From: a virus
Virus record (IMG/VR): IMGVR_UViG_3300042556_002685
Coordinates: 1-43,699 of that record
Direction: 5' to 3' (one strand)
DNA: 43,699 nucleotides
The translations under genes and the position numbers were made by a program. Positions 9,975-42,998 of this stretch are shown here, one piece after another. Position 1 is the stretch's first letter, and each line of letters opens with the position of its first letter. The notes under the pieces were generated by a model. The model was not told the origin of the DNA. It searched no databases and was given only the letters and a program-made list of their open reading frames with translations.

Positions 9975-9975
9975 C

Positions 9976-28583: not shown

Positions 28584-28589
28584 GCCGGG

Positions 28590-28595: not shown

Positions 28596-28630
28596 CACAC
28601 ATAAAAGTAGCCCGTAACTTGCGTGTCGTG

Positions 28631-28636: not shown

Positions 28637-28642
28637 CTTTGT

Positions 28643-28795: not shown

Positions 28796-28803
28796 GAGTA
28801 ATA

Positions 28804-30526: not shown

Positions 30527-30535
30527 GGAGAACAT

Positions 30536-31282
30536 ATGTCATACGCTCTTGCTAACATTCCGCCGGTCTCCTGCTACGTTCGCAGGGAGTATCTGCGTGA
30601 CTTTCAGGATGGCTACGGTGAATTCACCCCAGCATATTGGGTCACGGTCAAAGCCATTCGAGCCCGCGCCCTGTACATTGAGGCATTCCTTCCTGAGTAC
30701 GGCGCCCTGTACGACAAGCTGCCAATCAGCGCGTTTGTTTGGAAGCCAGAAACCCCAAAGCCAGACCTTAAGCTTGGCGACCTACAGCTTTGGGATGCCA
30801 TCTCGCCGCAGTTAGCCGTGGTTGAGAAGGCAGTATTGAAAAACATGCGCTGCAAATTCCGAACGCCCGCAGGGGTGTGGAGCGAAGGGCACTACTTGTT
30901 TACCGTTGACATGGTGCACAGCGACCCCAATGAGATTGACGCAAACTGGGCACGCGTTCCGTCTGAGCATAAATCCTATAACTTTATGCGCTTAGACAAC
31001 GGGCAATTTGCCGCCCAGCCAAACAACAGGGTGCTGTGGTTGGACGAAGCACTTGTCTACAAGGAAACCAAGATGCCGGACTTCAAGGTTTCTACAAGGG
31101 AGTTCTCGGCGGAGGGGGCCCGGTGGAGACTTGGTGATAGCGATGCCTGGGGCTACGACGACCAAGACAAGAAGGCTGAAATCAAATTTGTTCAGCCAAT
31201 TGACCAAGACCCGATTAAGGCCATGGCAAAAACGCTTAAAGTAATTGAGAAGAATATCCGCACGGGTTCCGTTTCGGATTAG
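30536..31282 (+). CDS. Conserved phage protein of unknown function
   Basis: 248 residues, SD AAGGAG. Runs such as PVSCYVRREYL, LPEYGALYDKLPISAFVWK, EHKSYNFMRLDNGQFAAQPNNR and PDFKVSTREF give a strongly conserved-looking soluble protein that I associate with a phage family without known function. Last gene of the plus-strand 28.6-31.3 kb unit. Confidence 0.75.
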   Translation: MSYALANIPPVSCYVRREYLRDFQDGYGEFTPAYWVTVKAIRARALYIEAFLPEYGALYDKLPISAFVWKPETPKPDLKLGDLQLWDAISPQLAVVEKAVLKNMRCKFRTPAGVWSEGHYLFTVDMVHSDPNEIDANWARVPSEHKSYNFMRLDNGQFAAQPNNRVLWLDEALVYKETKMPDFKVSTREFSAEGARWRLGDSDAWGYDDQDKKAEIKFVQPIDQDPIKAMAKTLKVIEKNIRTGSVSD

Positions 31283-31283
31283 C

Positions 31284-31319
31284 GCCGCTGGGTAGGAAAG
31301 GAATAACCACCCCAGCGGC
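31284..31319. terminator. Hairpin between convergent genes, possible terminator
   Basis: GCCGCTGGG (31284-31292) pairs perfectly with CCCAGCGGC (31311-31319) around an 18-base loop containing GGAAAGG. No U-tract follows on either strand, so termination, if any, is not of the simple intrinsic type. Confidence 0.45.
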
Positions 31320-31348
31320 AATTACGACTATAACAGAACAGATGTTCG

Positions 31349-31747
31349 TTAGTAACTTGCTGTTGTGCTGTGGTGTTTGTTGGCGTACTCAACAGCGTCC
31401 CGTTCGTACTTACGCACGGGGGTTTCGGCCTCAATAAAGCCACGGTAGAACCCGCTCAACAGTTTCTGGAACTTCGCGGGCTTGTGATAGCCGCCAAGCA
31501 TCATGCGAACCCCACCAGCAAAGTTTATGACTCTGACAAGGGCAATCCCGCCATAGTCCGACATCAAATGAAAGAACCCTGGCGTTGCGGTGCCGTCGTT
31601 AAAGTTTTTATGGCCCGACGGGAAGCCTGCCGCCTGGTTAATTAGGTTGACAGTTGCCTGCAACGTGCTCATGGTTAGCGAGTGGTCGCAGCAGTTACCC
31701 TCCGAGCACCCAACGCACCCACACTCCTGGCAATCTTCAGGCTCCAT
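31349..31747 (-). CDS. Unknown protein with Cys-rich N-terminus
   Basis: 132 residues; ATG overlaps the upstream stop (TAATG). Six cysteines in the first 20 residues (CQECGCVGCSEGNCC) may bind metal; the rest is soluble alpha/beta with a Gly/aromatic-rich middle. No family recognised. Confidence 0.6.
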   Translation of the reverse strand: MEPEDCQECGCVGCSEGNCCDHSLTMSTLQATVNLINQAAGFPSGHKNFNDGTATPGFFHLMSDYGGIALVRVINFAGGVRMMLGGYHKPAKFQKLLSGFYRGFIEAETPVRKYERDAVEYANKHHSTTASY

Positions 31748-32064
31748 TATGCCCTCCCCTTTTCATCCTGCTGGATGTGGCTAAGCTTTATATCGGTCAA
31801 CAGGTTAATAAGGGCTTGATACAAGGTGTTGCCCTTACCGTACCCAACGTTAAGGAGCGTTTTCTCTTCAACGCCCGGGTACACCTTGCTCTCTTCCATG
31901 CGTTCAACAGCCGCAGAGGCGCTCCAGCGCCCCTCCTTGCTCTGCTCAATCAGCCACAGCCGCTCGCCGTCGCGCAGTTCTCTTTCCACGCGGGCGTATG
32001 CGTCAGTGATGCATTCTGGGTCGCCACACGTGTGGCGGAAACCGTGCATACTTGTGCTTGCCAT
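31747..32064 (-). CDS. Unknown small protein, first of a promoter-hairpin unit
   Basis: 105 residues, AAGGG SD. Starts MASTSMHGFRHTCGDPEC and is otherwise helical. Expressed from the TTGACA/TATCAT promoter at 32110-32138, with a hairpin early in the mRNA. Function unknown. Confidence 0.65.
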   Translation of the reverse strand: MASTSMHGFRHTCGDPECITDAYARVERELRDGERLWLIEQSKEGRWSASAAVERMEESKVYPGVEEKTLLNVGYGKGNTLYQALINLLTDIKLSHIQQDEKGRA

Positions 32065-32084
32065 GTAGCATTCCCTTCTTATAG

Positions 32085-32138
32085 CCGACTGGTCGTCGGG
32101 TTCTTTTGGATGATACGACCGTTATCTTATCGTGTCAA
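32085..32138 (-). promoter_or_regulatory. Promoter with 5' hairpin (minus strand)
   Basis: TTGACA (32133-32138), 17 bases, TATCAT (32110-32115), start near 32103. A hairpin CCGAC-GACCA-GTCGG (32085-32099) begins at about +5. Confidence 0.8.
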
Positions 32139-32145
32139 GCGCTAT

Positions 32146-32451
32146 TTACTCGTTGGTGATCAGTTTTGCCGCGCCGATAATGACGCCAATTACAGAAATA
32201 ATTATCCCGGCCTGCGTTGCCCACCAAACAAGTGCCCAGTTGGGTGAGGCAATTGCGGCGTAATGACCGTCCTGCTCTACTTCTGCTGACTGAAGGTATC
32301 GCTTTACAACCTCTTTGCTGTACTGCCGTAAAAAAATAATCATGCCTGCGCTCATGACCAACAGAATTACTCCCGTACCGCCGTGGTTATAGGTGGGCAT
32401 AAGGTGGCAATACTCCTGAATTACCTCAGCGCAACGTTTCTCCGTCAGCAC
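32146..32451 (-). CDS. Two-span small membrane protein
   Basis: 101 residues from a GTG at 32451 preceded by GGGGGG; a TTG at 32478 is the alternative. Two hydrophobic helices (about 26-40 and 74-95) around a charged middle. Function unknown. TATAAT and TATCAT hexamers lie upstream at 32487-32516, so a separate promoter is possible. Confidence 0.5.
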   Translation of the reverse strand: MLTEKRCAEVIQEYCHLMPTYNHGGTGVILLVMSAGMIIFLRQYSKEVVKRYLQSAEVEQDGHYAAIASPNWALVWWATQAGIIISVIGVIIGAAKLITNE

Positions 32452-32518
32452 AAAATACCCCCCAGATTTTTTACACAAGGTTCGCCAAAACCAGTATGAT
32501 ACAAAACGATTATACTCA

Positions 32519-32740
32519 CTATTTGAGGACTTTTAGCGCACGGGGCGCCTTGGAGTAGCGGGACAGGCGCTTTTCCGCCACCAGGGCAGCGATTGCGCGT
32601 TGAATGGTACTTCGACCGCAGTCCAGCGTGTCCGTGAGCTCTGTGACCGTCGGGGCCTGGTTCCAGCGCTCAATGTGCGCGCGAATCTCGGCGTACACCT
32701 CGTCGGGGCGTGGCGCACCATCTACACGTCGCGCCTTCAC
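32519..32740 (-). CDS. Winged-helix DNA-binding protein
   Basis: 73 residues from a GTG overlapping the upstream stop (GTGA), GGAGG upstream. PDEVYAEIRAHIERWNQAPTV followed by LTDTLDCGRSTIQRAIAALVAEKRLSR is a typical LexA-N/MarR-like winged helix. It lacks any effector or dimerisation domain, so it may be a phage regulator acting alone. Confidence 0.75.
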   Translation of the reverse strand: MKARRVDGAPRPDEVYAEIRAHIERWNQAPTVTELTDTLDCGRSTIQRAIAALVAEKRLSRYSKAPRALKVLK

Positions 32741-32925
32741 GCCTGTGCCTCCAGTTGCTTCTGCTCATGACGAAGGTATGCCTGCTCGCTCTGGTCAAGG
32801 CACTCACGGCACAACGGCTTAGCACCGTACTGGTCAACCCATACGGCCTTTGCCTCATTGAAGCACTTGGCGCACTTAATCTGTGTCTGGGATTGTCCGT
32901 CTCGCTCTAAAATTATTGGCTTCAT
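32737..32925 (-). CDS. Small zinc-ribbon protein
   Basis: 62 residues, AAGGAG upstream, TAATG overlap with the previous gene. Cys pairs KCAKC and LCREC, then a helix rich in Gln/Glu. Function unknown. Confidence 0.7.
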   Translation of the reverse strand: MKPIILERDGQSQTQIKCAKCFNEAKAVWVDQYGAKPLCRECLDQSEQAYLRHEQKQLEAQA

Positions 32926-33128
32926 TAGGCCACGCTCCTTTCGTACTCTTTATGTCGGGTAATTCGCGCATCGCAGCACTTGCGGCAGAGCCAATATTCA
33001 AACCGTGCTGGTTCACGGTAGGTGAATTTCACAACTGCTCGGTCTCGGCTATCCCACGGGCAGTCATTGCAGGGGACGCCTTTTTCCAGCTGCTTGGGCC
33101 AGCTTTGGAACCACTCAACCTTCTGCAT
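32925..33128 (-). CDS. Small Cys-rich protein
   Basis: 67 residues starting at MQKVEWFQ, seven bases after the upstream stop. Cysteines in PCNDCPWD and WLCRKCC give a zinc site; the middle is a beta/aromatic stretch. Function unknown. Confidence 0.65.
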   Translation of the reverse strand: MQKVEWFQSWPKQLEKGVPCNDCPWDSRDRAVVKFTYREPARFEYWLCRKCCDARITRHKEYERSVA

Positions 33129-33135
33129 TATCAGC

Positions 33136-33348
33136 CTACAAATCTTCGCAGGACCCCGTGCACCAGTCGCTTCCGCAACCGGGGCAAAGACCCTGCTCTC
33201 GTGCGGATTGCTGCAGTTCAAACACGTCGACTTTCACCGCGTCCAAGAACCCATTGCAGCAACTGCATGCCGAGTAGCGCGTAGCGCCACCGCTATCGTC
33301 GCAATCAACGTGAATGTGGCCCTCAATGTGACCTATATGACTAGCCAT
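33136..33348 (-). CDS. Small His/Cys-rich protein behind a switch-like leader
   Basis: 70 residues starting at MASHIGHIEGHIHVDCDD with AAAGGAAC upstream. Many His, plus SACSCCNGF and LCPGCGSDWCTGSC, point to metal binding. First gene of the 33.3-32.5 kb operon with a leader of about 110 bases. Confidence 0.65.
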   Translation of the reverse strand: MASHIGHIEGHIHVDCDDSGGATRYSACSCCNGFLDAVKVDVFELQQSAREQGLCPGCGSDWCTGSCEDL

Positions 33349-33369
33349 GTTGTTCCTTTCTACTAAATA

Positions 33370-33496
33370 CCCCGCTGGGTTATGGCGAACCGCTTCCTTC
33401 GAGCAGAGAGGTCCCACATGGTCTTTCTCTTTTCCCCAGAAATTGTTCCCCAGCGGGGATAGTCGTATGGTACGACGGGATGGTACGGGTTGTCAA
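33370..33496 (-). promoter_or_regulatory. Promoter with 5' hairpin and alternative long-range stem
   Basis: TTGACA (33491-33496), 18 bases, TACCAT (33467-33472), start near 33460. At +2 lies the hairpin TCCCC-GCT-GGGGA (33447-33459). The same 5' arm CCCCGCTGGG (33449-33458) is also an exact 10-bp complement of CCCAGCGGGG near the SD (33370-33379), giving two exclusive folds. Confidence 0.7.
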
Positions 33497-33497
33497 G

Positions 33498-33573
33498 TGG
33501 TGACCCCGGCAGGATTCGAACCTGCGACCAACTGCTTAGAAGGCAGCTGCTCTATCCCCTGAGCTACGGGGCC
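33498..33573 (-). tRNA. tRNA-Arg (anticodon UCU)
   Basis: A full cloverleaf on the minus strand: acceptor GGCCCCG/CGGGGTC, D stem GCTC/GAGC, anticodon stem GCTGC/GCAGT with loop CTTCTAA (anticodon TCT), T arm GCAGG-TTCGAAT-CCTGC, discriminator A and encoded CCA. Reads AGA. The -35 box of the next promoter starts one base after the CCA. Confidence 0.95.
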
Positions 33574-33587
33574 GCGGAACCTAATCT

Positions 33588-33821
33588 TTAGCGGGTAGGA
33601 AGCGTTTTTTGCTTTTCGCGGGTTGCTGCACTCTGGGCTAACTTCTTCGCCCTCAGCGCGGGGTCATTCTGCTCGCGAATGGTACGCTCCTGGCGCTGCT
33701 CAAACTTGCAGGCACGGCAGATATGGTCCCCCTCTGCCTTGTAGAATTCATGATCGTGGGGCCAAGCTTCCTTGCATCTTTTACACGTTCTCTCCACGGG
33801 ATTCTCGTCGTAAAAGCCCAA
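33588..33821 (-). CDS. Small zinc-binding protein
   Basis: 77 residues from a TTG with AGGAGGACACC upstream. TCKRCKEAWPHDHEFY and HICRACKFEQRQ resemble phage zinc-finger proteins with a C..C...C..C site; the C-terminal half is a charged helix. Function unknown. Confidence 0.7.
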   Translation of the reverse strand: MGFYDENPVERTCKRCKEAWPHDHEFYKAEGDHICRACKFEQRQERTIREQNDPALRAKKLAQSAATREKQKTLPTR

Positions 33822-33833
33822 GGTGTCCTCCTG

Positions 33834-33932
33834 CTATGCGGTGGTCCAAAACGCAAATAACGCCAAGATGATCCCCACCAGGACGGTTATCCCGCCGATG
33901 AGTTCCAGCAAGTGTTGCTCCTTTTCGTCCAT
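33834..33932 (-). CDS. 32-residue membrane peptide
   Basis: Starts MDEKEQHLLELIGG with GGAGGACAACC upstream and ends after one transmembrane helix (IGGITVLVGIILALFAFW). A very short single-span protein between two coupled genes; possibly a toxin-like or regulatory peptide, but nothing more can be said. Confidence 0.6.
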   Translation of the reverse strand: MDEKEQHLLELIGGITVLVGIILALFAFWTTA

Positions 33933-34007
33933 GGTTGTCCTCCGCAGTCTAGGGGATGTTGGGTTCTTTCGCTTGCGTGCCAGTATCCATGCTGTGATTA
34001 AGGATAA

Positions 34008-34078
34008 ACCAGCCAAGGAGCCTCGGGCTCGGCCCGAAAACGCCGAAGGCGGTTGAGCCGTGAGGCGAGGGTCCTGGT
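34008..34078. other. Structured intergenic element
   Basis: ACCAG/CTGGT (34008-34012/34074-34078) could close GCCTC/GAGGC (34020-34024/34062-34066), inside which CGGGC-TCG-GCCCG and CGCC-GAA-GGCG are perfect hairpins. On the minus strand the last is followed by TTTT, so it may partly act as a terminator. Strand uncertain. Confidence 0.4.
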
Positions 34079-34097
34079 GCTGTGAAGCAGGCTCCAC

Positions 34098-34190
34098 TTA
34101 CTCTTCGTCCTCTGGCTCACACCACCCACAGTAGTTATCATCGCCTACAGAGCCGTTAAACTCATACCCGCAGACGATACACGCGCTCAT
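34098..34190 (-). CDS. 30-residue zinc-ribbon micropeptide
   Basis: ATG overlaps the upstream stop (ATGA), so expression would be by coupling. ACIVCGYE and YCGWCEPEDEE give a minimal four-Cys zinc knuckle. Too short for homology, but the overlap and Cys spacing support a real gene. Confidence 0.55.
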   Translation of the reverse strand: MSACIVCGYEFNGSVGDDNYCGWCEPEDEE

Positions 34191-34834
34191 GGCAGATAAC
34201 GTACTTCAATCTTCCCGCCAGGCTTCCCCTTCCGACCAAGTGCCTCCCATACCTGTGGAGAGAGGTCAATCAGCGACCATGCAGACGTCGGTCCATTCGG
34301 ATGACGCTGTCGGCAATCGCAGTAGTCGGCAATCCAGACCTCTACGGAGATGCCTGTCTGCAGCGAGGTAACGAGGACCTTGTGCTGGGGGACGCCATGC
34401 CACCCTGGCATCTGGTCGCCAATGCGCTTACGGAGTAGGGGCCCAAGTGCTGCGTACATGTCGTTCAGCGTGGTTGACCATGGGCGAACCAACTTTAGCC
34501 AGCCACCCATATCGCGCTGATAACAGTTGTATTCGGGATGCTTTGCACAGAGTGATGGGGTCAAACGGTTGCCTGCTGGGTCTTCTTGTACCCAGGTCTT
34601 TGGGCTGTCGTACCACGAGCCTGCAAAGTCGAAGGCGTCATACGTGGTGCCGAATCCGGTCAGGACTGGGGCGTTTGCCCAGATGCTGACTTCTTCCGTT
34701 GGTGTTGGTGCTGGTGTTTCCAGATACCAACTGTCGCGTTGGTCGGGCGTCGTGCCAAGCGAAATGACTGGCGACGGTACCGACGTGTAGATAAGAACTG
34801 CCGTCCATACGGCGGTGAGAATCTTGGTGACCAT
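34187..34834 (-). CDS. Secreted RlpA/double-psi-barrel-like protein
   Basis: 215 residues starting at MVTKIL with AAGGAGG upstream. A signal peptide of ~27 residues is followed by a Pro/Thr spacer. The C-terminal part, VEVWIADYCDCRQ and LIDLSPQVWEALG, is the hallmark of RlpA/expansin-type double-psi barrels (conserved D-x-C and IDLS). Such domains bind or cut peptidoglycan. Secreted at the start of the minus-strand region, it may weaken the host wall. The catalytic Asp is plausible but not proven. Confidence 0.75.
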   Translation of the reverse strand: MVTKILTAVWTAVLIYTSVPSPVISLGTTPDQRDSWYLETPAPTPTEEVSIWANAPVLTGFGTTYDAFDFAGSWYDSPKTWVQEDPAGNRLTPSLCAKHPEYNCYQRDMGGWLKLVRPWSTTLNDMYAALGPLLRKRIGDQMPGWHGVPQHKVLVTSLQTGISVEVWIADYCDCRQRHPNGPTSAWSLIDLSPQVWEALGRKGKPGGKIEVRYLP

Positions 34835-34857
34835 TGCTGCCACCTCCTTCTGCAAGC

Positions 34858-34888
34858 ATGGTACCACGGGCTTGACTGGCGTTGTCAA
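34858..34888 (-). promoter_or_regulatory. Promoter of the double-psi-barrel gene
   Basis: TTGACA (34883-34888) and TACCAT (34858-34863) with a 19-base spacer, longer than usual. Short leader with strong SD. Confidence 0.5.
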
Positions 34889-34935
34889 ATGGTATTTTTC
34901 TAAACGACCTACAGGGAGTGGTGGTTATTTGTGGT

Positions 34936-34976
34936 GGGTAGTGGGGTGGAAAGGGGAAGGAACAGGGTTACGGGGG
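34936..34976 (+). other. G-rich tract, possible quadruplex
   Basis: Runs GGG, GGGG, GGGG, GGG and GGGGG within 41 bases with loops of 4-8 bases. Located between divergent promoters next to the iteron array. Confidence 0.4.
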
Positions 34977-35107
34977 AAATGTGATATTCGGGTGGAAAGT
35001 TTGGCGAACCGTTTACATCGGTCGCGACTGTCCAGGGGTCTTACCTCTCACCTCAATACCCCATTCCACGTTATATTCGGGTTATTTCACGCTGCAACTA
35101 TCTGCCC

Positions 35108-35251
35108 TCGCATGCATAAAACCCCAGTTATGCACCAAGTTATGCATAAAACCCAGTTATTCCAGTTATTTGCCCCCTTTTATGCAAGTTATGGCCCCAG
35201 TTATGCCGGCAGTTAGTTATTTTGTGTAGTTATTGGAGTTATTTGAGTTAT
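35108..35251. repeat. AGTTAT iteron array (origin or switch candidate)
   Basis: Ten exact AGTTAT hexamers (35126, 35138, 35155, 35164, 35187, 35199, 35215, 35228, 35237, 35246) in 126 bases, spaced 9-23 bases, with looser GTTAT copies further left. Two fall in a direct repeat of the form ATGCATAAAACCC-AGTTAT. TTATGCA segments resemble partial DnaA boxes. It is AT-rich and sits in the largest divergent gap, so a replication origin or a repressor-binding array is likely. Confidence 0.65.
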
Positions 35252-35264
35252 TTCGTGCACATAT

Positions 35265-35337
35265 TTGACAAACTGATACAAATTTGGTAGAATGAGGGAG
35301 TAGGCCCTGTTCTCAGCCCTATAGGGGTCTGGCAGGG
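35265..35337 (+). promoter_or_regulatory. Early promoter P1
   Basis: TTGACA (35265-35270), 17 bases, TAGAAT (35288-35293), start near 35300, followed by CCCTG/CAGGG pairing (35305-35309/35333-35337) enclosing CCC-TATA-GGG. Confidence 0.75.
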
Positions 35338-35343
35338 GGGTAC

Positions 35344-35392
35344 TTGACAAGATACGACTGGGCAGAGTAAGATAGTGAAGCCTCAGTTGAGG
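35344..35392 (+). promoter_or_regulatory. Early promoter P2 with AGTT-loop hairpin
   Basis: TTGACA (35344-35349), 18 bases, TAAGAT (35368-35373); start near 35380. Hairpin CCTC-AGTT-GAGG at 35381-35392. Confidence 0.8.
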
Positions 35393-35416
35393 TTGTTAGA
35401 GAGTAGGAGGATGGAG

Positions 35417-35977
35417 ATGTCCCTAAACTGGTATGTCGCAAACATTAAGAATAGTGATGATGTGTGTTGGCTCACTGCCACCAAGAACAGCGTCATGGAT
35501 GGGCGTGTTCGAGGTGAGGAGTACCTACACCCCATTACTAATACCCTGATTTGGGCAACGATGGCGATTGGCCTGAGTGAGATTACCGCGGAGAACCTTG
35601 ATGAGTGGGAGGCGCGCTATGCCCTTGCCTATAAGGTGGGGTGGCTCTCTCCTCTGACGGTATGGAACGGCGAGCCAGTCGGCCCTGATGGGAAGAACGC
35701 TCACTGCTTCACCGAGCGGTACATCACCCGTGCGGACTTGGAGCAGCACATTGGGCTCTCGACGAACGCCAACGATGAGTCGGCTTCGGCGTGGCGCAAG
35801 CGGGTTATCGAGCGCATCACCGAGGAGGCCCTTAGTGAGTCGAAGCACCGCTCTGAGGAGAACGTTGCGATTGACGCCATCTGGCAGAAGGAAGGCATCG
35901 AGCTACGCGACCGCATCCGACGTGGGGAGACCACCAAGGAGAAGGAAGCCCTGCCAGAGTCCCAGCCAAACGACTAG
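35417..35977 (+). CDS. Early protein, unknown
   Basis: 186 residues. The ATG at 35417 is placed after AGTAGGAGG as in other cassettes. The N-terminal half (NWYVANIKNSDDVCWLTATKNSV, ITNTLIWATMAIGLSEITAENL) is soluble alpha/beta; the C-terminal third is charged helix. No confident family; first gene rightward of the origin-like region. Confidence 0.65.
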   Translation: MSLNWYVANIKNSDDVCWLTATKNSVMDGRVRGEEYLHPITNTLIWATMAIGLSEITAENLDEWEARYALAYKVGWLSPLTVWNGEPVGPDGKNAHCFTERYITRADLEQHIGLSTNANDESASAWRKRVIERITEEALSESKHRSEENVAIDAIWQKEGIELRDRIRRGETTKEKEALPESQPND

Positions 35978-35984
35978 TCAATGG

Positions 35985-36008
35985 GGGGCTGCCCTTCGGG
36001 GTGGCCCC
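35985..36008 (+). terminator. Strong hairpin, possible terminator
   Basis: GGGGC (35985-35989) and GCCCC (36004-36008) enclose CCC-TTCG-GGG (35992-36000). Only a short T-containing run follows, and the next -35 box starts two bases later. Confidence 0.55.
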
Positions 36009-36010
36009 TC

Positions 36011-36039
36011 TTGACTTGATGATACTTTTCTTGTATGAT
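36011..36039 (+). promoter_or_regulatory. Early promoter
   Basis: TTGACT (36011-36016), 17 bases, TATGAT (36034-36039). No 5' hairpin is obvious in this copy. Confidence 0.75.
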
Positions 36040-36060
36040 GGTTGCGAAAGGGGGTAGCGT

Positions 36061-36120
36061 ATGATTCGGACATTTGTATACATTTGTATCTGGGGTATGT
36101 TCTTCGGAATGTTCCTCTAA
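36061..36120 (+). CDS. Possible 19-residue hydrophobic peptide
   Basis: MIRTFVYICIWGMFFGMFL, with AAAGGGGG upstream and directly after the promoter. Could be a leader peptide or tiny membrane toxin. Length makes this uncertain. Confidence 0.35.
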   Translation: MIRTFVYICIWGMFFGMFL

Positions 36121-36147
36121 AGAATAGTTGATAGATAGGAGGACGCT

Positions 36148-36447
36148 ATGTACGTTCATCAGTGTGCAGAAGACACCACAACGGAGATTGAGCTCCTAGC
36201 AGCAGTTCAGGCGACCCTTCGAACGGCAGTGTTTGGCAATGGCCGGACATTCTGGTTGAAGGATGACTCCGACATCCATGAGGATGCCGCGGGGGTTATG
36301 GTCGCGTCAATCTATTGCTCGGAGTGCGAGAAGTTTGTCGTAGACTTTAATAGCGACTACGTCAATGGCAAGAGTTTGTCTGACGTCGAAGATGCCCTTA
36401 CTGAGGGTGAGTTCGAAAAAGACGGCATCGTATGGATGGAGGAGTAG
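36148..36447 (+). CDS. Early small protein
   Basis: 99 residues, AGGAGG upstream. Contains YCSECEKF, possibly half of a metal site, and an acidic end. No family recognised. Confidence 0.65.
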   Translation: MYVHQCAEDTTTEIELLAAVQATLRTAVFGNGRTFWLKDDSDIHEDAAGVMVASIYCSECEKFVVDFNSDYVNGKSLSDVEDALTEGEFEKDGIVWMEE

Positions 36448-36449
36448 TT

Positions 36450-36644
36450 ATGGCTCGTAGTTATGTCATCACGCTACGTATGGACGTAGATGAGCGTGCA
36501 GACCACCCAGCCAACTGGGATTGGGCTACCTTGCTTGACCTGCCGGATTCCGGGGGCGTCGAAGTTTTGTCTGCCGAACCCCTTGACAGCGAGGGGTCGG
36601 CTGAGGTAAACTATCTAACGGCGGGTTTCCGCTCTAATAAGTAA
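36450..36644 (+). CDS. Early small acidic protein
   Basis: 64 residues starting at MARSYVITLRM; GGAGGAG lies in the end of the previous gene, three bases upstream. Beta-alpha composition with an NWDWATLLDL stretch. Unknown. Confidence 0.6.
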   Translation: MARSYVITLRMDVDERADHPANWDWATLLDLPDSGGVEVLSAEPLDSEGSAEVNYLTAGFRSNK

Positions 36645-36656
36645 GTAGGAGGATGT

Positions 36657-37130
36657 ATGGGTCAGTATCACGGACTATTTAACATCGACAAGAAGGAAAT
36701 GATTTTCCCCCACGAGCTGGGCTTTGGGGCGAAGCAGTGGGAGCATACCGGCTTTGCGGGTTCGCTCTCTGACATTCTGTATGCGCTCTGCGCCTATCGG
36801 ACACATCGTGGCGGCGGCGACTTCGCTGACGACAACGGTGAGTTCAAGGGGCGTTGGCACGGCGACCGCGTCGCGGTCATTGGCGACTACGCTGAACTCG
36901 GCGACCTGCCAGAGGTATGGAACGATGCCTTTGTCATCAAGGAGTACAACGGCGAGACGTTCAAGACCTTCAACAGCGCGCGCACTAGCGAGGACGGCTT
37001 CGAGCCATTCTTCCGCGACATTGCGGGGGAAGTTAGACCTCACATTGCGAAGCTCTGGGAGCGCGAGACGGATGACTTGCAGTCCCTGAGCAAGAAGTAC
37101 GAGCACGTCAGCCAGGCGATTGCTCGGTAG
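36657..37130 (+). CDS. Conserved early protein (MGQYHGLFNIDKKE type)
   Basis: 157 residues, AGGAGG. The start MGQYHGLFNIDKKEMIFPHELGFG recalls small proteins of actinobacterial phages and plasmids that begin MGQYY...NLDKKEYL, without assigned function. Soluble alpha/beta. Followed immediately by a promoter cassette. Confidence 0.65.
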   Translation: MGQYHGLFNIDKKEMIFPHELGFGAKQWEHTGFAGSLSDILYALCAYRTHRGGGDFADDNGEFKGRWHGDRVAVIGDYAELGDLPEVWNDAFVIKEYNGETFKTFNSARTSEDGFEPFFRDIAGEVRPHIAKLWERETDDLQSLSKKYEHVSQAIAR

Positions 37131-37181
37131 TTGACAGAATGATACTGGTGCGGTATACTCCCCTTCGGGGGAGATACCCCC
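37131..37181 (+). promoter_or_regulatory. Early promoter with 5' hairpin
   Basis: TTGACA (37131-37136), 17 bases, TATACT (37154-37159), start near 37166. Hairpin GGGGG-AGATA-CCCCC at 37167-37181; an alternative CCCC-TTCG-GGGG overlaps it (37160-37171). Confidence 0.85.
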
Positions 37182-37200
37182 AGTAGAGTAGGAGGACGAG

Positions 37201-37518
37201 ATGGCAGTAAGTTGGGACAAGGTAGAAGTCGCCGTAGAGTTGGCGAAGGGCATCGCGTTTGACGAGTGCCACAAGATTTACGTCTTGATGGACGACGAGC
37301 AGATGAAGTTGATGAAGGGCTACGGGTACGACCCGCTGTTCTCATCTAACGACCTTACGCCGAAAGAGATGCTGGAAACCATTAAGACGTGGTGGGACGC
37401 ATCGTGCGGCTTGCGGTTCGTCAATGGTGTTCGCACTGTTGCGGGAGACCCAAACGAGGGCTTTATCAACTTGATTCCGCAGGGTGCGGAGTTTGAGGAG
37501 GAGGAAGCTTATGCGTAA
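37201..37518 (+). CDS. Early protein, unknown
   Basis: 105 residues, GAGTAGGAGGACGAG SD context. Helical with an acidic C-terminus (EFEEEEAYA). Overlaps the next gene by eight bases. No family recognised. Confidence 0.65.
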   Translation: MAVSWDKVEVAVELAKGIAFDECHKIYVLMDDEQMKLMKGYGYDPLFSSNDLTPKEMLETIKTWWDASCGLRFVNGVRTVAGDPNEGFINLIPQGAEFEEEEAYA

Positions 37519-37801
37519 GGTACTCGCCCATAAAGGCTGCGAGCACCGAGGGGACAACCCACGGGGCGTCTATGCCTACACCAAGCTGTACGCTTCTGCG
37601 AATCCAGAAATCTCTGAGACGGGTGAAATCGTCTGGGAGACTGGAGCCCCTTGGGAGGGGCCCCTGTATGCGTACGAACTTGTCTGTTTCGATTGCGACA
37701 CCACCATCCTGTTGATGGAGGAGATTGAGACCTACAAGTTGACCTATGCGGTTGGGCATTACCCAGCCGACTACAATGTCGAAGTTATCGACATCGCGTA
37801 G
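37511..37801 (+). CDS. Early protein, unknown
   Basis: 96 residues starting at MRKVLAH with GGAGGAAG upstream. Contains HKGCEHRG and CFDCDTTIL, suggesting a metal site. Beta-rich. Unknown. Confidence 0.6.
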   Translation: MRKVLAHKGCEHRGDNPRGVYAYTKLYASANPEISETGEIVWETGAPWEGPLYAYELVCFDCDTTILLMEEIETYKLTYAVGHYPADYNVEVIDIA

Positions 37802-37802
37802 T

Positions 37803-37886
37803 TAGGCTTCACGCCTAGCCTGCAGGACACCCCTAGTTAGGGGTTGCGGGTAATACGGGGCTGGTTGGTGTCCTCCGGCCAGTCCC
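37803..37886 (+). promoter_or_regulatory. Pseudoknot-like structured leader
   Basis: Hairpin TAGGC-TTCAC-GCCTA (37803-37817). CCCCT-AGTT-AGGGG (37830-37843). AGGACACC (37824-37831) is the exact complement of GGTGTCCT (37867-37874), which itself lies in the loop of a hairpin GGGCTGG/CCAGTCCC (37858-37864/37879-37886), so a pseudoknot or two exclusive folds are possible. SD AAGGAG follows at about 37895. Confidence 0.6.
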
Positions 37887-37905
37887 AACAACTTAAGGAG
37901 CACGC

Positions 37906-38106
37906 ATGACGGAGAAGCTAGGGCCGAAGTTAGAAACCAGACGCGACGTAGGGGTGGCCTACCTCCGGAATGAGGAGCTACTTCTTTTAAGCGTGCCGCT
38001 TGAACTTATCGACGAGCTTTGCGAGCAGCTTGGGACTGCGTCTGAACTTTCGAAGGTCATCAAGGCGCAGGTTGCAGGGCCGGACATTCGCAAACTAGAC
38101 GCTTGA
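37906..38106 (+). CDS. Small acidic early protein
   Basis: 66 residues, SD AAGGAGCACGC, placed behind the structured leader. Helical (PLELIDELCEQLGTASELSKVI). No family recognised. Confidence 0.6.
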   Translation: MTEKLGPKLETRRDVGVAYLRNEELLLLSVPLELIDELCEQLGTASELSKVIKAQVAGPDIRKLDA

Positions 38107-38150
38107 CAAACTAATACCTGTAGTTTATACTGCCCTAGTGGCAGTTGCCA
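38103..38150 (+). promoter_or_regulatory. Early promoter with AGTT-loop hairpin
   Basis: TTGACA (38103-38108), overlapping the previous stop, 17 bases, TATACT (38126-38131). Hairpin TGGC-AGTT-GCCA (38139-38150) begins at +2. Confidence 0.9.
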
Positions 38151-38176
38151 TAGTAATAAGTATGTAGGAGGACGAG

Positions 38177-38971
38177 ATGCCTAACTGGTGTGTCAATCAA
38201 CTAGATGTTCAGGGCGACGAGGCAGAGGTCGCACGGCTTATCGAACTGGTCAAGGGCGACGACGATGCCTTTGACTTCTCGAACATTGTGCCGATTCCCG
38301 ACAGCCCCTATTACGCGACCAACGAGGGTCAGAACGATTTCCTCTGCGGCTGTAAGAAGGTCTGGGTCGAGACGAAGGCGCAGGTCGGCAAGTACGACGA
38401 GGAAGGCTACGAGAAGGCTGAAGGACATTGGGAAGTAAACGGCTTGCCTATTGTCAAGGAGATGCTGGATAACGGCACGCTTCACGACTCGGTGGCACAG
38501 ATGTTCGGCGGCTCTGAAGTCTGCCCAACCCACAAGGTCGGACAGATTTCTTCGCAGCCTGACTGGTGGTACAACTGGAATGTTGCCAACTGGGGTACGA
38601 AGTGGAACTGCGGTGATGTGTGGCACGACCGCGCCGACGATTCGGTTGTCGAGGGTAAGACCTCATACAACTTCGACACGGCGTGGAGTCCTGCGGAGCC
38701 TGTGGTTGCCGCTCTTGCCGAGCAGTTCCCGACACTCTCGCTTACGCACCGATACTGCGAAGGCGGTATGGGGTTCGCAGGTGAGGTCGAGTACGCCAAC
38801 GGCGCAGAGGTTGACCGCAAGTCGTACGACGATGGCGGTTCGCTGCCAGACGAGGCGTACTTCCCAGACGAGGATGGCACTCGCGGCTACGAGCGGGACT
38901 ACGACAAGGTTCCGATGACCGAGTTCGAGTCGTTCTGCGACGAGCACTTCGGCGGCGTGGTCGGCGGATAA
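38177..38971 (+). CDS. Api92/YubB-like protein (DUF1281 type)
   Basis: 264 residues. The start MPNWCVNQLDVQGDEAEV and the later NVANWGTKWNC and FDTAWSPAEPVV reproduce the layout of the phage P1 Api92/YubB family, which has a ferredoxin-like C-terminal part. Family members occur in phages and on plasmids near leading regions; function is not settled. Acidic C-terminus. Confidence 0.8.
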   Translation: MPNWCVNQLDVQGDEAEVARLIELVKGDDDAFDFSNIVPIPDSPYYATNEGQNDFLCGCKKVWVETKAQVGKYDEEGYEKAEGHWEVNGLPIVKEMLDNGTLHDSVAQMFGGSEVCPTHKVGQISSQPDWWYNWNVANWGTKWNCGDVWHDRADDSVVEGKTSYNFDTAWSPAEPVVAALAEQFPTLSLTHRYCEGGMGFAGEVEYANGAEVDRKSYDDGGSLPDEAYFPDEDGTRGYERDYDKVPMTEFESFCDEHFGGVVGG

Positions 38972-39028
38972 GAGTTAGGAGTTATGCGTCGTGCCCACGC
39001 GGGCGCGTCGCAGCTCCGGTTTGTCTTC

Positions 39029-39064
39029 GGTGGGGTCGGTGTTCTGGCGGGTGCCGGCCCCACC
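39029..39064 (+). terminator. Long hairpin, probable terminator
   Basis: 11-bp stem (one G-T) GGTGGGGTCGG/CCGGCCCCACC. A smaller hairpin TGCG/GCCC...GGGC/CGCA lies just before (38985-39012). Weak U-tract (ATTTACTACTTG). Confidence 0.55.
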
Positions 39065-39073
39065 ATTTACTAC

Positions 39074-39125
39074 TTGACAAGATAGCATTCATACCTTATG
39101 ATACTGGTATGGCGAATCACGCCAT
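39074..39125 (+). promoter_or_regulatory. Early promoter with 5' hairpin
   Basis: TTGACA (39074-39079), 17 bases, TATGAT (39097-39102). Hairpin ATGGCG-AATCA-CGCCAT (39109-39125) begins at the predicted +1. Confidence 0.9.
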
Positions 39126-39141
39126 TGAGTAGGAGGACAAG

Positions 39142-39618
39142 ATGAGCGGACAAATGGATAAATGTATTGCGTGCGGCGACATGCTGTTCTATGCCGATGA
39201 GAAAGTCATTGGCACTTGGAACGGCTTCCCGTACACGCGGTTCGACACGCTGGAATTTGCCCAGTATGCCGATGGCGTACCAGAGGGCTACCAGACCTAT
39301 TGTCTGAACTGCGCTCCGTGCGAGTGCGAGTTCCACCCACCATTCATGTCGGACAAGCAAGCCGCTGCCGATGGTTGGTGCTTCCGCCCACAGTCAGCGT
39401 GCGAGTATGCGCTAACGCGAGATGGCGAAGCCAACTGGCATCGGCACTACAACGACATCCCACGGGAGTCGGCGAGTGAGTGCTTGTGCCGAGATGTCGA
39501 TTATGCCCCGTGCGGATTGTGCGACCCTGCTGAGGGCGTGGACACAGGCGACAACCCAGAGGGTTGCTCTGCCCCAGTCTGTATGGCGTGCGGGTACACG
39601 ACGAACCAAATCCAGTAG
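39142..39618 (+). CDS. Cys-rich early protein
   Basis: 158 residues with many cysteines in pairs (KCIACGD, YCLNCAPCEC, CGLCDP, VCMACGY), so several zinc ions could be bound. Aromatic-rich middle. No family recognised; possibly a nucleic-acid-binding scaffold. Confidence 0.65.
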   Translation: MSGQMDKCIACGDMLFYADEKVIGTWNGFPYTRFDTLEFAQYADGVPEGYQTYCLNCAPCECEFHPPFMSDKQAAADGWCFRPQSACEYALTRDGEANWHRHYNDIPRESASECLCRDVDYAPCGLCDPAEGVDTGDNPEGCSAPVCMACGYTTNQIQ

Positions 39619-39620
39619 GG

Positions 39621-39647
39621 TATACTGCTCGCAAGGGCAGTTGCCCT
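39621..39647 (+). promoter_or_regulatory. Possible promoter with AGTT-loop hairpin
   Basis: TATACT (39621-39626) and AGGGC-AGTT-GCCCT (39634-39647). No good -35 is visible within the preceding gene. Confidence 0.6.
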
Positions 39648-39665
39648 GCTAATTAGGAGGGTGTT

Positions 39666-39974
39666 ATGACATACCGGAACGAAAAGGGTTATCTCACATA
39701 CTCAGGGCTTGCTGTTGAGCGAGCGCTGGCTGCTGTGGGCGCACACACCGGGAACCCAGACCAGGAGGCGATTGCTGCCGTTGCGGACCTTACGATTCGT
39801 GGCAAGCAGGAAGACTCCGACATGACTGCCGCTGCGCGATTTGAAGCTGCGCTTGGTGAGCTTGTTGCCGACCTGCTTCATACGGCCGATGCGGCTTCTG
39901 TGTCATTCGACGCAGCACTGACGTTTGCCAAGAAGAAGCATGAGAGCGAGAAGGCACTCGACGCAGCCAAGTAA
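39666..39974 (+). CDS. Early helical protein
   Basis: 102 residues, AGGAGG SD. Ala-rich helices after a short TYRNEKGYLTYSG start. Unknown. Confidence 0.6.
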   Translation: MTYRNEKGYLTYSGLAVERALAAVGAHTGNPDQEAIAAVADLTIRGKQEDSDMTAAARFEAALGELVADLLHTADAASVSFDAALTFAKKKHESEKALDAAK

Positions 39975-39979
39975 TCTCC

Positions 39980-40042
39980 GCCCCGTGGGGGCTTGACAAG
40001 ATAACACCTGTGGTTTATACTGCCCTTCGTGGCAGTTGCCAC
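39980..40042 (+). promoter_or_regulatory. Early promoter with AGTT-loop hairpin
   Basis: Hairpin GCCCC-GTG-GGGGC (39980-39992) abuts TTGACA (39993-39998); 17 bases; TATACT (40016-40021). The transcript then starts with GTGGC-AGTT-GCCAC (40029-40042). Confidence 0.9.
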
Positions 40043-40066
40043 AGGTGTTTTTAGTAGGAGGATGGA

Positions 40067-40426
40067 ATGAAAGCAGAAGTTTACCCAGACGACGAAAAAG
40101 GGTTGGAGAACTTTCTTACTGACGGCGTTCGCAACAAGTTGGTTGCTGCGCGTGGAGACCTTGCGTCAGCAGAGTTGCGAGACGCGCATTACCTCTTCAC
40201 CGAAATGGTCAGCCCGTTGTACGGCGCGGTCATCATCGGTGGCAAGGTCATCGGCGACGGCTCATCGGAAGAGCCACTCATGCCTGTCCTGTTCGTTGAG
40301 CAGGGCGGCAAGCAGTATGCCCTCATCATCTCTTCTGATGATGAGATGAACGATGGTGGGCGCATCATGATTGAGCGTGGACTCCACGCCTTTCAGCACC
40401 CGACCATCCTTGACGGGGCGCGCTAA
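40067..40426 (+). CDS. Early protein, unknown
   Basis: 119 residues, AGGAGGATGG SD. Beta-rich with VLFVEQGGKQYALIISSDDE. Its TAATG overlap couples the next gene. Unknown. Confidence 0.6.
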   Translation: MKAEVYPDDEKGLENFLTDGVRNKLVAARGDLASAELRDAHYLFTEMVSPLYGAVIIGGKVIGDGSSEEPLMPVLFVEQGGKQYALIISSDDEMNDGGRIMIERGLHAFQHPTILDGAR

Positions 40427-40779
40427 TGAACGACTATGTTGTTCTTCTGCGAGCCAACGGCGAAATCGAATACCCGTCCTTCGGGTCGGGATTCGAGTCG
40501 CTCCGCAAGCATGTCGAGTACCAGTGGTTTGAGGTCATCAAGCGCGGCAAGGCTGTGAACCCAGACACAGGTGCGGAGGTTCAGTCGGTCATCCTTGGCG
40601 ACGAGGAAGGCTTGATGAACACCCCAGCGGCAATCAACTGGGCAGCGTCCAAGGTGGTTGGTGCGCCAATCGTGGGTGATGTCTTTATCTGTGGCACAAC
40701 GAAGTACGACCTTCGTGGTTTCACCGAGGAAGAACTATCCACAGTTCGGGGTGCCACTATCAACAGTACGTTGGCGTAA
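40426..40779 (+). CDS. Early protein, unknown
   Basis: 117 residues. Pattern of a small alpha/beta protein (FESLRKHVEYQWFEVIKRGK, VVGAPIVGDVFICGTTKYDLRG). Unknown. Confidence 0.6.
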   Translation: MNDYVVLLRANGEIEYPSFGSGFESLRKHVEYQWFEVIKRGKAVNPDTGAEVQSVILGDEEGLMNTPAAINWAASKVVGAPIVGDVFICGTTKYDLRGFTEEELSTVRGATINSTLA

Positions 40780-40936
40780 AACGGAGGGACTGGCTGAGCA
40801 CAAACTTGGCCGGTCTCATACGTTTTTGGGCATTTTCGGGGCTAGGAGCGATGGTACGCAGACGGGTGGTACCAAGACACTACTTTGGGGTCTAAAAGGG
40901 CTTAGCGTGGCGCAAATCGGCCAGCTAGAAAGTTTT
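40780..40936 (+). other. Non-coding stretch before the tandem terminators
   Basis: No gene with an SD is visible here. One perfect hairpin TGGTAC/GTACCA lies around 40853-40875. It may be the 3' end of the preceding transcript or a short RNA. Confidence 0.4.
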
Positions 40937-40981
40937 AGTGGTGGGGTCCGGGTGCCACTTTTTTCTGGGCCCCCGTTTTTT
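40937..40981 (+). terminator. Two overlapping, mutually exclusive terminators
   Basis: First: AGTGGTG/TGCCACT (40937-40943/40953-40959), two G-T pairs, then TTTTTT. Second: GGGGTCC/GGGCCCC (40943-40949/40967-40973), then TTTTTT. They share bases, so only one can form at a time. Confidence 0.65.
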
Positions 40982-40985
40982 CGGT

Positions 40986-41182
40986 ATTAGGGACTATGAG
41001 AATCTTCAAGCTATGCACTGAAGATATTCCTAATCGCTGAGCATTCCGAACGAAGTGAGGAATGACTCAGCACCGTAAGGTGAGGTTAATTCCTATTATT
41101 TCCTATATGACCTTTCTAAGCGTATAGGAACTAACTAATAATATATATCCCTATTCCGGTGGCCCCCAGCATAGCACACCGG
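40986..41182 (+). ncRNA. Candidate structured non-coding RNA
   Basis: No plausible gene in ~400 bases, but consecutive stems: ATTAGG/CCTAAT enclosing ATCTTCA/TGAAGAT (40986-41034); GCTGAGCATTCC with GGAATG-A-CTCAGC (41036-41071); ACC-GTAA-GGT (41072-41081); TATTATT/AATAATA enclosing TTCCTATA/TATAGGAA (41094-41143); CCGGTG/CACCGG (41156-41182). The strand is assumed plus; the promoter is not identified. Could instead be an origin-type element. Confidence 0.55.
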
Positions 41183-41199
41183 TCAAAGCCCGGTCAAAG
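41179..41199. repeat. Tandem operator-like repeat
   Basis: CCGGTCAAAG occurs twice (41179-41188, 41190-41199), 11 bases apart (one helical turn), ending eight bases before a -35 box. Likely a protein-binding site. Confidence 0.5.
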
Positions 41200-41206
41200 A
41201 AAGTAC

Positions 41207-41270
41207 TTGACATAGTTAGACTTACGTGTTATGATTCGTGGGCAGACGCTGTAATTTACTGATTAGTAAA
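41207..41270 (+). promoter_or_regulatory. Promoter preceded by tandem repeat
   Basis: TTGACA (41207-41212), 17 bases, TATGAT (41230-41235). A hairpin TTTACT-GATT-AGTAAA (41255-41270) follows. No gene starts before the next promoter, so it may make a leader or small RNA. Confidence 0.75.
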
Positions 41271-41313
41271 ACTGTGGATGATTCGGCATCAAAAGTATCT
41301 CCGAACAAGGGGC

Positions 41314-41367
41314 TTGACGAATCGCTAAATCCGAGCGTACAATGTTGGCAAGCGGGGTTTACTCCGC
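41314..41367 (+). promoter_or_regulatory. Second promoter with 5' hairpin
   Basis: TTGACG (41314-41319), 18 bases, TACAAT (41338-41343), start near 41350. Hairpin GCGGGG-TTTA-CTCCGC (41352-41367) with one G-T pair. Confidence 0.8.
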
Positions 41368-41388
41368 AAAGGAAAGGTAGGAAGTGTT

Positions 41389-41664
41389 ATGGGAATCGAG
41401 AACGACTCCGTTCTGTATGCCGTGGTGCACGACCATTTGGTCTTCAACCACATCCCTGCATTCCAGTCCAGCCTAGTGCCGTACGCGGTAGAGGCTATCC
41501 GCCTCGCCGTAGACGAGCAGTGGGATGAGGCTGTGGTTGTAGAGGGCAAGCGGCTGAAGAACGGCGAAGGTAAAGCGGCAACTGCTGCCGATTTGGTACA
41601 GCAGTTTCATTTGGACAACTTTGTGGAGTCCATCAAATTCGATACAGAGGAAAGGGTAAACTAA
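41389..41664 (+). CDS. Early protein, unknown
   Basis: 91 residues. SD AGGAAG. Alpha/beta; coupled by TAATG to the HTH protein downstream. Unknown. Confidence 0.6.
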   Translation: MGIENDSVLYAVVHDHLVFNHIPAFQSSLVPYAVEAIRLAVDEQWDEAVVVEGKRLKNGEGKAATAADLVQQFHLDNFVESIKFDTEERVN

Positions 41665-42188
41665 TGAACGACGTAGTAGCAGTACAGGCACAGGTGCGCG
41701 AACTTATTTCATCGCGCAACGCTGAGATGGCAAAGGATTATTTGGACAACCAGATGTCCCTTGCGCAGCTATCAAAGAAGTACAACCTAAGCCGACAGCG
41801 GATTAGTCAGTTGTTTAAGAAGATGGGCGTTCAGACGCGACCAGTCAGTTCGTCGGCGAATTATCGCGGCGAGCCAAAGCGCGACTACAATGCCATCGCT
41901 CTCCGTGCCGTGGAACTTGGTTCCATCTCGGCTGCGGCAAGCGAGTTCGGTCTGACCAAGGGGCAAGTTAATTACGCGCTCCAGAAGACTGACCAGAGCA
42001 TCTACCTCCAGAAGTTCCGTGAGCCTAAGGTGGTTGCGGGAATCCTCGCCGCTTATTCGGATGGCGTTATGACGCTGAAAGAGATTGGCGAGAAGTTTGG
42101 GACAAGCGCGCAGTACATCAACACCATCCTTCGCCGCAACGGCGTGATTGGTGGACGGAAGCGCGGACGACGCCCAAAGCAGAAGTAG
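41664..42188 (+). CDS. Triple-HTH regulator with AT-hook-like tail
   Basis: 174 residues. Three helix-turn-helix-like segments: SLAQLSKKYNLSRQRISQLFK (32-52), ISAAASEFGLTKGQVNYAL (88-106), TLKEIGEKFGTSAQYINTILR (137-157). A basic end, GRKRGRRPKQK, resembles an AT-hook. No nuclease or recombinase motif is visible. Placed behind the tandem-repeat promoter, it is a good candidate for an early-region repressor or activator, perhaps binding the repeat or the AGTTAT array. Confidence 0.75.
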   Translation: MNDVVAVQAQVRELISSRNAEMAKDYLDNQMSLAQLSKKYNLSRQRISQLFKKMGVQTRPVSSSANYRGEPKRDYNAIALRAVELGSISAAASEFGLTKGQVNYALQKTDQSIYLQKFREPKVVAGILAAYSDGVMTLKEIGEKFGTSAQYINTILRRNGVIGGRKRGRRPKQK

Positions 42189-42212
42189 GGGCAACACGGG
42201 AGGGGGTGGGGC

Positions 42213-42261
42213 TTGACAGCCTCACCCTTTTCCTTTATACTGGCTCTAATCCCCGTTGGGG
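42213..42261 (+). promoter_or_regulatory. Early promoter with 5' hairpin
   Basis: TTGACA (42213-42218), 17 bases, TATACT (42236-42241). Hairpin CCCC-GTT-GGGG (42251-42261). Confidence 0.85.
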
Positions 42262-42281
42262 TAATCAAGTAGGAGGATGAG

Positions 42282-42668
42282 ATGGCAACAGGTTGGAATC
42301 TAGTACACGACGAGGCTCTACGGGCTGACCGCACGCTGACGATTTGGCGCAACGACAGCACCGACCGCACGCTCTTTGAGGTCAATCGTGAAGGTCTATA
42401 CATCATGTATTACTACACGGCTGCCGACGCAATGAACAACGACAATCAAGCCGCAAACATTTGCTATGGCTGGGACTTGTTGATGTCCGAGGGCGAGGAC
42501 TCGGTACGCGGTGCTTGGATGAACAGCGTTGCCGACAACATTGGCAACGATGTGATGACCTGCGAGCACGGCGCGGTGGACTGCGAGCGGATGTTCCACG
42601 CGGCTCAGGTGCTTCTCGGCAACGAGGATGAGGATGAGTGCGATGTCTGTAAGGCTTGGGGCGCGTAG
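42282..42668 (+). CDS. Early protein, unknown
   Basis: 128 residues, AGTAGGAGGATGAG SD. Cysteines in TCEHGAVDCER and ECDVCKAW may bind metal. No family recognised. Confidence 0.65.
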   Translation: MATGWNLVHDEALRADRTLTIWRNDSTDRTLFEVNREGLYIMYYYTAADAMNNDNQAANICYGWDLLMSEGEDSVRGAWMNSVADNIGNDVMTCEHGAVDCERMFHAAQVLLGNEDEDECDVCKAWGA

Positions 42669-42673
42669 CCCTA

Positions 42674-42722
42674 TTGACAAGCAGAATACAAACCTTTATA
42701 ATGGGCATAGCCCAGTTGGGTT
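42674..42722 (+). promoter_or_regulatory. Early promoter with AGTT-loop hairpin
   Basis: TTGACA (42674-42679), 17 bases, consensus TATAAT (42697-42702). Hairpin AGCCC-AGTT-GGGTT (42709-42722), with one G-T pair, begins at +1. Confidence 0.9.
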
Positions 42723-42740
42723 GATAAGTAGGAGGATGAG

Positions 42741-42998
42741 ATGAGCGAAGAGAAGTTGTACGAAGTTCACGTTTCTAGCGTTTCCGATTTCACGGCGTAT
42801 GTCCGTGCCAAGAGCGCGATTGACGCTGCCCACGATGCAACGCAGCAGGGCATTGGCGATTGGAACTTTGAGCAGACCGAACACATTGCCAACGCTGTTG
42901 CGTACATTGACGAGGTCAGCGACGAGCGTTTCCCAGAGTGGGAAAATCCACGCGGTCTGGGCTACTGCCCAAACTGCACGCATTGCAACGCGTTGTAG
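42741..42998 (+). CDS. Early protein with C-terminal Cys motif
   Basis: 85 residues. An alpha/beta start (LYEVHVSSVSDFTAYVRAKSAIDAA) is followed by a YCPNCTHCNAL end that may bind zinc. Unknown. Confidence 0.65.
   Translation: MSEEKLYEVHVSSVSDFTAYVRAKSAIDAAHDATQQGIGDWNFEQTEHIANAVAYIDEVSDERFPEWENPRGLGYCPNCTHCNAL

Follow-up and report, generated by a model that had tools for sequence, protein, structure and literature searches.

The window analysed here is the whole of IMG/VR record IMGVR_UViG_3300042556_002685 (G000), a linear stretch of 43,699 bp, and the element under study (40986-41182) sits in it between two co-directional early operons. The element had been described as free of genes, and inside it only scraps of reading frame of 20-27 amino acids are found, an unsupported frame of 110 amino acids contributing just its last codons, which end at 40990. 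The gene order around the element is common to the window and a related phage represented by a linear contig of 90.8 kb (G007), which contains homologues of the genes at 39666, 40067, 40426, 41664, and 42741 in this arrangement and the homologue of 42282 elsewhere. A 91-amino acid gene between the element and the gene of a helix-turn-helix (HTH) protein (41389-41664) is missing at that place in G007. The following features were annotated.

40735-40743, + strand: CTATCCACA box, DnaA-box-like (8/9 to TTATCCACA), left of the element and inside the 3' end of a 117-amino acid gene
40786-40817, + strand: terminator-like hairpin of 13 pairs at the end of the upstream operon (z -4.7)
40818-40924: ungapped non-coding block of 107 nt, 80% identical in G007, with an identical core of 27 nt, CATTTTCGGGGCTAGGAGCGATGGTAC
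40943-40981, + strand: terminator-like hairpin with a TTTTTT run after it, immediately ahead of the element; in G007 a hairpin of 13 pairs occupies this position
40988-40993 and 41148-41153, + strand: predicted closing stem P1, 5' arm TAGGGA and 3' arm TCCCTA
41002-41025, + strand: predicted hairpin P2, ATCTTCA/TGAAGAT; G007 also has a hairpin here (GAAGCT/AGCTTC)
41036-41071, + strand: 12-bp stem P3 with a bulged A at 41065 and a GAA triloop, covarying with G007
41072-41081, + strand: GNRA mini-hairpin P4, ACC-GTAA-GGT, directly on P3 and identical in G007
41100-41130, + strand: predicted AT-rich stem P5, TTCCTATA/TATAGGAA
41112-41125, + strand: loop sequence CTTTCTAAGCGTAT of 14 nt, identical in G007
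41136-41148: tract of A and T only, TAATAATATATAT, inside the stability minimum; G007 has ATATATATATATAT at the same place
41168-41197, minus strand: extended -10 promoter-like site (TTGACC-18-TATGCT with TG), from which the AT-rich tract would be transcribed
41179-41199: two direct copies of CCGGTCAAAG, 11 bp apart (starts at 41179 and 41190)
41207-41235, + strand: strong sigma-70-like promoter of the next operon (TTGACA-17-TATGAT), a consensus match
41273-41281, minus strand: TCATCCACA box, inverted relative to that at 40735
41664-42188, + strand: HTH gene with two helix-turn-helix domains, 73% identical in G007, a conserved neighbour for which a link to the element is not implied

The delimiters named in the original prediction are in place, with terminator-like hairpins upstream and the CCGGTCAAAG repeats and the TTGACA-17-TATGAT promoter downstream. 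A stem followed by a run of T, as in intrinsic terminators, is seen at 40943-40981 and in none of the stems P1-P5. The promoters predicted at 41207 and at 41314 point away from the element, and neither a sigma-70-like promoter on the + strand before it nor a T-tailed terminator after it was found. The promoter-like site on the minus strand has a degenerate, partly kept counterpart in G007, as judged by eye from the alignment. The early region as a whole (35265-42702) contains 17 strong sigma-70-like promoters compared to 5.2 expected by shuffling, such consensus matches not being evidence of function. Several of them (e.g., 39993 and 42213) are located within the terminator hairpin that precedes them, in its arms or between these, and are followed by a common (A)GTAGGAGGATG leader.

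A second contig of the same phage (G003, 99.99% over 34.8 kb) extends the window leftwards. It carries a head-tail adaptor gene and, at 5376-20846 (loci L173/L174), a single reading frame of 5,156 amino acids, whose tape-measure domain (TMP_3, PHROG tape measure) would mean that the tail is extremely long. In G007 portal and head maturation protease genes are found together with a single reading frame of 5,435 amino acids (26473-42780). The frame after the giant one encodes 2,454 amino acids in G003, with no family match, and 2,812 in G007. The tape-measure and head-tail adaptor genes of G003 and the portal and protease genes of G007 make a siphovirus probable, one with a very long tail, and on the same grounds a T4-like phage, hinted at by a 'ferredoxin' gene, was discarded. 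The window also encodes a protein with histone-deacetylase fold on the minus strand (9976-10899; Pfam Hist_deacetyl, E 3.4e-55).

Fold of the element and its conservation

The + strand of 40986-41182 yielded a minimum free energy of -62.8 kcal/mol compared to -40.6 +/- 3.6 for shuffled sequences (z -6.2, with 0 of 200 shuffles as good), and the minus strand one of -67.3 kcal/mol (z -4.8). The stems originally proposed were all recovered: the 12-bp stem with one bulge at 41036-41071, the GTAA hairpin at 41071-41082, which is P4 with its outer pair (CACC-GTAA-GGTG), and the AT-rich stem, for which there are two registers, 41085-41096 or 41096-41107, pairing with about 41123-41135. In folding windows of 180 nt the element reaches only z -3.4/-3.8, and folding energy alone is not decisive since other stretches, including coding DNA, score as well or better (40321-40500, coding, z -7.2 on the + strand; the terminator area at 12841, z -6.8). 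The case rests on the comparison with the related phage and not on folding energy.

DNA similarity at the element was found in one contig, G007, among 42 related contigs searched, and apart from short blocks the two sequences have diverged past plain BLAST significance. When a covariance model of P3-P4-P5 (102 nt) was made from the window alone, it detected G007:88075-88173 (38.9 bits, E 1.8e-7); a sequence-only model yields 24.7 bits on G007 and aligns solely from inside P3 onward. The covariation check suggested along with the prediction was run by counting pairs, and P3 proved to covary. On the covariance-model alignment, which was made to fit the structure and is biased in its favour, with the stem anchored by identical sequence on both sides, 14 pairs of P3 were compared: five are changed on both sides, none is broken, and one is lost on both sides. 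In the two sequences 44 of 44 cells are paired, and when the partners were slid by 1-3 columns as a control no double changes remained.

P3 reads GCUGAG-CAUUCC-GA-ACGAAGU-GA-GGAAUG-A-CUCAGC in the window and GCUGG-AGUUCU-GA-AU-GA-ACGUAGU-GA-AU-GA-AGAACU-A-CCAGC in G007. The bulged A is kept, and the loop of G007 adds one symmetrical AU+GA module, that is, a second G·A module. The design with tandem G·A mismatches (41048-41049 opposite 41057-41058 in the window) and a GNA loop is common to both phages, and ACC-GUAA-GGU is stacked directly on P3 in both. CUUUCUAAGCGUAU occurs in the P5 loop area of both phages, and P5 itself is not clearly kept in the alignment, three of its eight pairs being lettered in both phages and the other five falling in gaps. 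Base pairing conserved by compensatory change, as in structured non-coding RNAs, is thus seen in P3 across two sequences. From this conserved pairing it follows that a single-stranded folded state matters and is under selection.

With RNA parameters P3-P4 is more stable on the + strand than on the minus strand by 4.2 kcal/mol in the window and by 5.8 kcal/mol in G007, because only the + strand has the tandem G·A pairs and the GNRA loop; with DNA parameters the strands differ by about 1 kcal/mol. As modelled, this contrast favours an RNA of the + strand. GNA triloops and tandem G·A pairs are very stable in DNA too, which the DNA parameters used may miss, so that the folded molecule may also be single-stranded DNA.

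The element was said to match no known class, and in the region the Rfam 15 covariance models yielded nothing above threshold and no more than chance matches below it. A blastn search of the phage collection found no match in annotated phages. Exact motif scans of the viral and genome collections returned, besides G007, only unrelated sequences lacking the fold or the loop, and motif and covariance-model searches of 41 further relative contigs gave nothing beyond chance. In protein searches with the HTH gene, alone or as a two-sequence alignment, and with the 117-amino acid gene, G007 was the only close relative, and the element is absent from other contigs with distant HTH homologues. A packaging RNA, one of the roles first considered, found no support: there is no match to the Rfam pRNA of the phi29 type, and the element is located among early genes, with no terminase recognised nearby, rather than by packaging genes. 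Group I introns, retrons, type III antitoxins, and HK022 put sites were set aside, as no supporting neighbour or Rfam match was seen for them.

Stability, repeats, and the flanking block

In nearest-neighbour calculations no stretch of the window at 50, 80, or 200 bp is less stable than that within the element, which ranks second at 120 bp, and the corresponding region of G007 is the least stable DNA of its contig at all four sizes. The minimum in the window starts at 41097 (50 bp) or 41076 (80 bp). An A+T-rich unwinding region of lowest duplex stability, as found in theta origins, is present here, its rank being partly explained by the fact that the element is a long gene-free stretch and intergenic DNA is expected to be AT-rich.

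The element is also the densest cluster of YCCTA/TAGGR in the window (6 in 220 nt compared to 0.5 expected; p 0.007 from shuffles), and the G007 region contains 8 in 310 nt (p 0.0005), a G-rich repeat region elsewhere in G007 being denser; as the motifs were picked after looking, these numbers and those for the boxes below are suggestive only. The cluster is unphased. Inverted copies of the motif build the arms of P1 and P5, and P3 and P4 contain none. Degenerate telomere-like G-rich repeats (GGGGTTAGGG) are found in a gene-poor region of G007 (6628-6676 and 7024-7090, L152), which also harbours inverted CCCTAACCCC-like copies at 7104 and 7214.

Boxes related to CTATCCAC flank the element. A poorer copy, CTATCAACA, follows the box at 40735 by 22 bp (40757), and two copies with the same spacing are present in G007 (L081:1254 and 1276). 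The arms around the two window boxes (40732-40746 and 41270-41284) are 15 nt long and 87% complementary, and G007 has a perfect inverted pair of 14 nt (L081:1273/1839). Both phages have a pair of ACTATC(C/A)AC(A/G) spaced by 22 bp plus an inverted copy, as initiator repeats might, degenerate in the window. The left box CTATCCACA lies within coding sequence, and the G007 homologue of that gene lacks it. CTATCCAC is also found elsewhere in G007, including a pair at 6180/6200 beside another promoter-like sequence, and may be a transcription-factor site.

The 107-nt block shows no coding pattern, its mismatches being spread evenly over codon positions, no small reading frame, and no RNA covariation or shared fold, and an exact 18-nt pattern from it was absent from other viral contigs. 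Its conservation is as expected of a protein-binding region, for which it is a candidate.

A possible origin of replication or structured RNA

The DNA-level features point at least as much to a replication element as to a free RNA. The explanation put forward as the best, tentatively and at somewhat less than an even chance, is an element like an origin, folding as a single strand or in its transcript. With the same reserve, the element could be the folding half of an intergenic region of ~550 bp which serves as the replication origin of the phage. Proteins would bind the 107-nt block and/or the flanking inverted CTATCCAC boxes, and the adjacent AT-rich stretch would open, perhaps aided by transcription from the promoters at the right edge. 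The P2-P3-P4-P5 hairpins would then form in the + strand thus exposed or in an RNA made from it, and they may keep the site from closing, serve as a signal to the priming or helicase machinery, or act as a primer. As only two genomes carry the element, its function is something we infer: protein binding, opening, and priming, with a single-stranded DNA or primer RNA rather than a free small RNA.

A replication element had been among the original suggestions, and it gains from a stability minimum seen in either genome at sizes of 50, 80, and 200 bp, the YCCTA/TAGGR cluster in both phages, the inverted CTATCCAC-like boxes on either side, with perfect arms in G007, and the 107-nt block conserved without a coding or RNA-structure signature. 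The covariation of P3, taken as the mark of a selected single-stranded folded state, speaks for it too, as do the terminator-like hairpins ahead and the failure to find a + promoter of its own. Theta origins commonly pair an unstable A+T-rich region with repeated sites for protein binding (PMC5043065), a general plan that speaks for an origin here. The locus differs from theta-type phage and plasmid origins such as ori lambda and the iteron plasmids in having no regular iterons and no identified initiator, and in its covarying hairpin group within the unstable stretch (PMC5043065). A weak profile match to a 'replication initiation protein' (E 7.7e-5) lies ~77 kb off on the linear G007 contig, and cumulative GC skew does not turn at the element. 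The gene-free, AT-rich nature of the stretch, the coding position of the left CTATCCACA and its absence from the G007 homologue, the further copies of CTATCCAC in G007, and the occurrence in only two genomes count against an origin as well. With the R-loop origins of the ColE1 RNA II type (PMC5043065) the locus would share a structured transcript and an easily opened tract, a resemblance of plan only, and the promoter of a preprimer RNA was not found. In T7-type phages the early region combines RNase III hairpins with a primary origin that is AT-rich; the present phage, not T7-like by its genes, likewise has hairpins and an AT-rich intergenic stretch in its early region.

A free small structured RNA from the + strand (~40985-41182), which could arise when the upstream operon is read through or its transcript processed, or start at a promoter that went unrecognised, is possible and somewhat more doubtful than an origin; such an RNA might, at the same level of doubt, bind a host or phage protein or RNA with P4 and the P5 loop as contact sites. 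The folding z of -6.2, the five double changes in P3 with no broken pair, the RNA folding preference for the + strand of about 2-6 kcal/mol in both phages, brought about by the tandem G·A pairs and GNRA loop, the second symmetrical G·A module of G007, and the identity of the GTAA loop and CTTTCTAAGCGTAT all fit it. The structured RNA originally predicted accordingly stands as a conserved, base-pairing non-coding element, and its existence as a free RNA is weakened by the missing + promoter and T-tailed terminator and by the terminator-like hairpins in front. In addition, misfolding is favoured by the AT-rich sequence and by P1 and P5 arms that reuse the YCCTA motif, no antisense target for the conserved P5 loop was found above chance elsewhere in the phage, and there is no Rfam match. 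Phage-borne structured RNAs (manA, wcaG, and c4) have been described, with STAXI left undecided between RNA and single-stranded DNA (Weinberg et al. 2010, PMC2864571); the likeness is that of a conserved structured element in phage or mobile DNA, and the present element has neither pseudoknot repeats nor UUCG loops nor an Rfam 15 match. It is unlikely, though conceivable, that P3, with modular tandem G·A units on a GNRA mini-hairpin, represents a new class of structured phage RNA or folded single-stranded DNA in a narrow group of long-tailed phages, serving a host protein as decoy or scaffold or acting as an undescribed origin primer. Improbable is a mere boundary of early operons, in which terminator-like hairpins and P3, as a hairpin for RNase III-type or 3'-end processing, only separate transcription units: P3 does lie between two operons, a terminator-like hairpin directly precedes the element in both phages, and many early operons have their own predicted promoter, but the GNRA hairpin, the 14-nt loop, the multi-stem fold, and the 107-nt block would be left unexplained. 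Least probable is an operator region of the neighbouring HTH gene, with the YCCTA and CTATCCAC repeats as its binding sites and the hairpins as by-products of inverted operators. The motifs occur in both orientations, the HTH gene is a conserved neighbour, and the CTATCCAC pair at G007:6180/6200 adjoins another promoter-like sequence; yet P3 and P4 contain no motif and P3 covaries, and operators need no compensatory double changes.

An origin is ranked above a stand-alone RNA gene because it accounts better for the melting minimum, the repeats, the boxes, the 107-nt block, and the missing promoter of the element; a folding strand or primer RNA can be part of an origin as well. The comparison of two genomes already tells selected pairing from chance folding. 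Should the element be an RNA, it would be a structured phage RNA absent from Rfam; should it be an origin, it would be the replication start of an uncultured phage group, marked by compensatory mutations and not just by AT content and repeats.
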